Below are positions 12,591 through 59,835 of a stretch of 64,000 nucleotides of DNA, in pieces. The position numbers and the translations under genes are program-made. Position 1 is the stretch's first letter, and every line of letters begins with the position of its first letter. The DNA is from Malania oleifera (taxonomy: Eukaryota > Streptophyta > Magnoliopsida > Santalales > Ximeniaceae), in the NCBI RefSeq assembly GCF_029873635.1, contig NC_080419.1, forward strand, positions 79,220,931 through 79,284,930, written 5' to 3'. Below the pieces are notes generated by a model. The model was not told where the DNA came from, did not search any database, and was given only the letters and a program-made list of their open reading frames with translations.

Positions 12591-12767
12591 CTATAGACCC
12601 GGAGGCTTTAAAAAAGGAACCAAACCAAAAATTCCCTCCACGTCAACAGGAACTTCAAGAGCACGGCTAAGGAGCTCTGGCGTGGAGGTCTTGCCTTTCC
12701 AGGTGTTGAACCATGGTCCTCCCCCAATTTCTACAGCTGTCATGTTGCTCGTAACATCCAAAATAAT
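12591..12767 (-). CDS. VTE1: VTE1 exon 10 (terminal)
   Basis: 177 bp including the stop TAG, reading [20 protein letters not shown] through [11 protein letters not shown]. The acceptor is TTTGTAG|ATTATT. The C-terminal PFxKPPGL is characteristic of the family. Confidence 0.96.
   Translation of the reverse strand: MILDVTSNMTAVEIGGGPWFNTWKGKTSTPELLSRALEVPVDVEGIFGLVPFLKPPGL

Positions 12768-59835: not shown

Follow-up and report, generated by a model that had tools for sequence, protein, structure and literature searches.

A tocopherol cyclase gene of Malania oleifera with an intact coding frame around a 30.5-kb intron of nested transposons

The DNA analysed here is a window of 64,000 nt from Malania oleifera (assembly GCF_029873635.1, contig NC_080419.1, positions 79,220,931 to 79,284,930), and all positions given below without a contig name are those of the window. 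A tocopherol cyclase gene, VTE1, was rebuilt on the minus strand from splice sites and reading frames (Table 1). It runs from 59835 to 12591 and contains 10 exons totalling 1530 nt; the joined product is a protein of 509 amino acids followed by a stop codon, with no stop inside the frame. Coding sequence accounts for 3.2% of a gene body of ~47 kb. The original prediction had proposed this span, ten exons, an open frame of 1530 nt and an intron share above 95%, all of which were recovered by the rebuilding. Introns 1 to 9 measure, in order, 3181, 768, 5104, 2363, 736, 30530, 548, 288 and 2197 bp. The junction of exons 6 and 7, between positions 46706 and 16175, is in phase 0 across the 30,530 bp of intron 6, which confirms the predicted join over ~30.5 kb. 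The further claim that phases match at every join stands given a GC donor for intron 5 and the downstream acceptor of intron 4, and fails otherwise. When ten stretches of the window with the VTE1 exon lengths were joined at random, 0 of 20,000 sets stayed open; this control is crude, and the choice of AG/GT sites lies outside it. A perfect 18-bp tandem repeat occupies 12486-12521, ~70 bp past the stop codon and probably within the 3' UTR, and a 100-bp unit is present in two perfect tandem copies at 7751-7951, 4.6 kb past the end of the gene.

Table 1. Positions of VTE1 exons, intron 6, its elements and the splice features around exon 5
Feature	Position in window	Strand	Evidence or remark
VTE1 exon 1	59528..59835	-	ATG at 59835; exon model and protein search of genome
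VTE1 exon 2	56102..56346	-	exon model and protein search of genome
VTE1 exon 3	55254..55333	-	exon model and protein search of genome
VTE1 exon 4	50073..50149	-	exon model and protein search of genome
VTE1 exon 5	47540..47709	-	170 nt, not divisible by 3; both flanking splice sites irregular
VTE1 exon 6	46706..46803	-	exon model and protein search of genome
VTE1 exon 7	16068..16175	-	exon model and protein search of genome
VTE1 exon 8	15403..15519	-	exon model and protein search of genome
VTE1 exon 9	14965..15114	-	exon model and protein search of genome
VTE1 exon 10	12591..12767	-	carries the stop codon
VTE1 intron 6	16176..46705	-	30,530 bp
LINE-like element, split by two LTR elements	16831..32510	-	class inferred from layout and one RVT_1 match
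Copia-type element	16934..21754	+	Retrotran_gag_3, Pol_BBD, gag_pre-integrs, RVT_2
LTR element with 1.9-kb LTRs	23529..31086	+	LTRs 91.1% identical over aligned columns
Oldest LTR-like pair	32835..39281	-	85.1% identical over aligned columns; strand from protease fragment
Second LINE-like copy	35622..38823	+	recognised by alignment to the first; two LTR insertions absent
Gypsy-type LTR element	40595..45595	-	Retrotrans_gag, Integrase_H2C2; LTRs 91.3% identical
Degraded direct repeat, left copy	16404..16574	.	near 3' end of intron 6
Degraded direct repeat, right copy	46073..46269	.	near 5' end of intron 6
GC donor dinucleotide of intron 5	47538..47539	-	CAG/GCATTG; junction backed by cyanobacterial alignment
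Perfect 19-bp tandem duplication, 2.2 copies	47706..47746	-	two acceptors, exon starts 47728 and 47709

The joined protein matched the Pfam profile Tocopherol_cycl (PF14249) from position 1 to 335 of 335 (481.3 bits, E 1.9e-144), and a full-length cyclase domain therefore sits in a single frame. In this domain the protein resembles plant VTE1/SXD1. Its Ser-rich N-terminus looks like a plastid transit peptide, a likeness predicted by eye only. Three cyanobacterial relatives (L038-L040) are 46-48% identical to the protein over the best segment; they are three of the eight loci found, the other five being partial matches with 19-28% identity. The alignment to these three relatives is free of gaps at junctions 1, 2, 5, 6, 7 and 8, including junction 5 (GLSSG/WIEW) and junction 6 (KWFW/VQCNVF), and has gaps near junctions 3, 4 and 9. 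Of the 233 positions that are invariant among the three relatives, 152 are retained in VTE1.

A protein search of the genome (1,494,336,490 bases in 510 contigs) returned 11 matches, ten of which were the exons of VTE1. The original prediction had raised the possibility of a second intact VTE1 locus, and none was found in this assembly; likewise, one EgTC gene was found in oil palm (PMC8604351). The remaining match (L005, C9:16991669-16994785) lies on another chromosome and is an unspliced piece of exon 6 with its intron flanks, itself interrupted, in which parts of window positions 46108-47078 recur at 83-88% identity. We rejected it as a second VTE1 gene, since, besides being interrupted, it has a stop in frame and its acceptor and donor are both altered. 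Because it contains exon 6 and portions of introns 5 and 6, it is a copy made at the DNA level; it stops short of exon 5. VTE1 and the C9 copy are identical at 91 of 98 positions of exon 6 (7 differences) and at 271 of 312 positions of adjacent intron (41 differences). This difference between exon and intron would be expected from selection on the window copy and drift of the C9 copy, with the number of changes being small. The C9 intron part has diverged by 13.1%, compared with 14.9% (raw) for the oldest LTR-like pair of intron 6 and 6.8-8.9% for its other three LTR pairs; assuming equal rates, the copying therefore dates to between the oldest pair and the other three.

Elements delimited by self-comparison and Pfam matches fill 27,128 of the 30,530 bp of intron 6 (89%), such that identifiable transposable elements have swollen the gene around an intact coding sequence. 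The first LINE-like element consists of an upstream part (31081-32510), a reverse transcriptase part (21768-23532, RVT_1) and a tail (16831-16931); the upstream part had no Pfam match and is endonuclease-like by eye only. One of the two LTR elements that split it is the Copia-type element, the LTRs of which are 93.2% identical over 132 aligned bp. The other, with 1.9-kb LTRs, is flanked by ACTTG and ATTTG (a repeat judged by eye), and its orientation was taken by eye from a primer-site-like sequence. No coding domain was found in this element, and its interior (25443-29161) has no open stretch of at least 90 aa, so it may be non-autonomous. The oldest LTR-like pair (32835-33269 and 38831-39281) encloses an Asp_protease_2 fragment and the second LINE-like copy, for which the two stretches scanned yielded no Pfam match. 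Both domains of the Gypsy-type element scored barely above the cut-off. Three of the six elements share the sense of VTE1, judging by domain strand or layout, and these could bring polyadenylation signals into the transcript. Intron 3 contains a further Gypsy-type fragment (SH3_Tf2-1; 53916-54392, plus strand).

The K2P distances between paired LTRs are 0.073 for the Copia-type element, 0.093 for the Gypsy-type element, 0.096 for the element with 1.9-kb LTRs and 0.167 for the oldest pair. At a rate of 1.51e-9 (PMC8626473) these would correspond to roughly 24 to 55 million years; a faster rate would make them several-fold younger, and what we claim is the order only. This dating covers the four LTR pairs. 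Near its two ends, intron 6 also contains a degraded direct repeat with a local score of 63, compared with at most 20 in 100 shuffles. The 68-bp core of this repeat is 90% identical, and the genome search placed it only at these two positions. Either an old local duplication parted by the transposons or the remains of a low-copy element may account for the repeat. The two copies may conceivably be LTRs of one giant element, but the five bases preceding the left copy did not recur past the right one, and the search gave just the two positions.

Assemblies tend to fail in nested repeats, and one possible explanation for the length of intron 6 is that it is an artefact that inflated or misjoined VTE1. 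We consider this most improbable, as the window contains no N and belongs to a contig of 127 Mb, the insertions are nested coherently, and the genome search found no third place for the repeat common to both ends of the intron. A host gene nested in intron 6 was rejected as well, since every scanned stretch with a Pfam match above the cut-off was of retroelement type. The scan took 20 open stretches of the window, 15 of them inside intron 6, where there are 35 stop-to-stop stretches of at least 90 aa; nine were above the cut-off (retroelement), ten had no match and one matched KNOX2 only. The KNOX2 match (54067-54249, E 0.004) fell below its own cut-off and was rejected as chance. A small nested gene may still lie among the 20 remaining stretches of intron 6 or in shorter exons. 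Searches of the window for structured RNAs and tRNAs, one of them at gathering scores, gave 0 matches.

We then simulated neutral drift of the coding sequence at half the divergence of each LTR pair, with 20,000 runs per age. The four LTR pairs supplied the ratios of change (284 substitutions and 38 gap openings, 32 of which were not multiples of 3), as a rough proxy for neutral change in exons. For drift since the Copia insertion the VTE1 frame was intact in 2 of 20,000 runs, and in 1 of 20,000 in a second run; at each of the three older LTR ages it was intact in none. With frameshifts left out of the simulation, the frame stayed open in 7.5% (Copia), 3.9% (Gypsy), 3.7% (1.9-kb LTR) and 0.4% (oldest pair) of the runs. 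As the frame rarely survives drift since the youngest LTR insertion, we conclude that selection acted while intron 6 was already long. Over shorter periods of drift, survival was more frequent: 217 of 20,000 runs were intact after half of the Copia age, 1028 after a third and 2074 after a quarter. By this model, constraint may have been lost during roughly the final third of the period that followed the Copia insertion. The original description of a constrained gene under a heavy transposon load is borne out by the open frame, the share of intron 6 held by elements and the presence of a single copy in the assembly.

The 30.5 kb between the two halves of the gene are mostly transposons, some of them on the sense strand, and exons 1-6 and exons 7-10 could by now be separate transcription units that are not joined. 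There is little to recommend this explanation, and we give it a very low probability: frame and phase are kept in both halves, the full cyclase domain would fit in neither half alone, and the neutral simulation leads one to expect frame loss over time. Moreover, annotated introns of plant MSH1 are reported to reach 101,025 bp (PMC10487979).

The original prediction had described tocopherol cyclase genes as normally compact and the locus as remarkable for that reason, a view that found no support in this form. The tocopherol cyclase gene of oil palm is reported at 19,129 bp (PMC8604351), that is, 19.1 kb against 47 kb here, and long introns filled with transposable elements are described for other plants (PMC8626473, PMC10487979). 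Within the same genome, we used the chaperonin and adaptin families as controls; a third family, UbiA, was dropped with only 6 hits. Measured by family search, VTE1 spans 41.4 kb and its largest gap is 31.2 kb. Three of the 22 control groups with multiple hits span 24.1, 32.8 and 38.0 kb, and long genes are accordingly not rare in this genome; the table of spans leaves out ten single hits (7 + 3), and groups may merge neighbouring genes or pseudogenes. The 38.0-kb group rests on one gap of 36.2 kb, longer than the VTE1 gap, in which 128 profile positions are missing; this gap may contain several introns, as may others of its kind, or two genes may be involved. Within this small set VTE1 is the longest, yet in line with the others. 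Among the adaptin matches, C10:8920632-8920844 and C10:8951357-8951569 cover the same profile positions (413-482) on opposite strands at a distance of ~31 kb, a pattern suggestive of an inverted duplication.

Comparable genes have been reported elsewhere. In Chloranthus, 876 of 2184 orthologues exceed 20 kb, LTR elements are given as the chief contributor to long introns, and expression is said to fall only once intron length exceeds 40 kb (PMC8626473). VTE1 shares LTR-dominated intron growth and an ordinary coding length with the long genes expanded by transposable elements in Chloranthus, magnoliids and gymnosperms (PMC8626473; for MSH1, PMC10487979); it differs from them only in the gene and the species concerned, its size being within the range described in these reports. 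Titles and abstract openings among the listed matches from the literature on the tocopherol cyclase gene contained no mention of a long VTE1 intron. In our view the locus is an ordinary, if large, example of intron growth driven by transposons, at the upper end in length.

The surprising part of the locus is the pair of splice sites around exon 5, which the original prediction had missed: intron 5 starts with GC instead of GT, and the acceptor of intron 4 lies inside the 19-bp duplication. These two features may set the gene apart from other plant VTE1/SXD1 genes. Use of the upstream acceptor (exon 5 start 47728) leads to a stop at codon 242. A CTGAC motif, which we take to be branch-point-like, is found 35 nt upstream of this acceptor, which may be the one preferred in splicing. 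Skipping of exon 5 leads to a stop at codon 244, and retention of intron 5 to a stop at 297. The phase-compatible GT donors tried between 47709 and 47400 all fail to preserve the full-length frame: with those at 47678, 47660 or 47648 the protein loses 36-46 residues, and with those at 47468 or 47423 translation ends at codon 297. Among the donors tried, the GC donor alone preserves both the full-length frame and the homologous junction. Scored against the donor consensus CAG/GTAAGT, the VTE1 donors match at 5 to 7 of 9 positions; the GC donor, with 5, equals those of introns 2 and 7. GC-AG introns are reported to form a recognised minority among plant introns, with a share of less than 1% in model organisms (PMC7072748).

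One explanation of these sites is that the gene, although intact in frame, has recently been crippled, i.e. that the exon 5 sites divert most transcripts to early stops and that VTE1 has newly become a pseudogene, or is a weak allele. The acceptor duplication is probably young, because its 19-bp copies are perfect; each of the alternative outcomes listed above shortens or truncates the protein; and drift over the last third of the Copia age would still leave the frame open at the frequency given above. We nevertheless consider this explanation unlikely, since 1530 nt without a stop or frame break remain, no second intact copy was found in the assembly to take over, the GC donor scores no lower than two other donors of the gene, and its class is an established one. 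Less probable still is that exon 5 acts as a gate through inefficient, perhaps regulated, inclusion, in which case vitamin E output would be set by the splicing of introns 4 and 5 to nonsense-carrying forms and not by the 30-kb intron. The arrangement of the sites nonetheless suggests that the likelier weak point of VTE1 splicing is exon 5 and not the 30-kb gap.

The gene model, its homology, the copy number in the assembly, the nesting and relative divergence of the elements and the survival of the frame are direct observations on VTE1, whereas for transcription and splicing we infer the course of events. By far the most likely explanation is that this is the sole functional VTE1/SXD1 gene of the plant, and that the present 30.5 kb of its intron 6 arose step by step, as two LINE-like elements and four LTR or LTR-like ones inserted in nested fashion under selection that preserved the coding sequence. 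RNA polymerase II would then read through the elements of intron 6, and the ordinary spliceosome would join 46706 to 16175. Exon 5 would be joined by way of the GC-AG intron 5 and the downstream tandem acceptor, probably with partial loss of VTE1 output to aberrant transcripts. In Arabidopsis, the IBM2/EDM2 pathway is reported to let transcripts cross heterochromatic introns, and IBM2 is described in rice too (PMC7145194, PMC10241880). VTE1 resembles the genes transcribed with the help of IBM2/EDM2 in having an intron filled with transposable elements within a gene of intact frame (PMC7145194, PMC10241880). Such machinery for passing intronic heterochromatin may prevent premature polyadenylation in intron 6.

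VTE1 of M. oleifera provides a relatively dated example of a core metabolic gene that stayed in frame as nested transposons filled one of its introns. The locus further suggests that looking for irregular splice sites can be more important than intron length.
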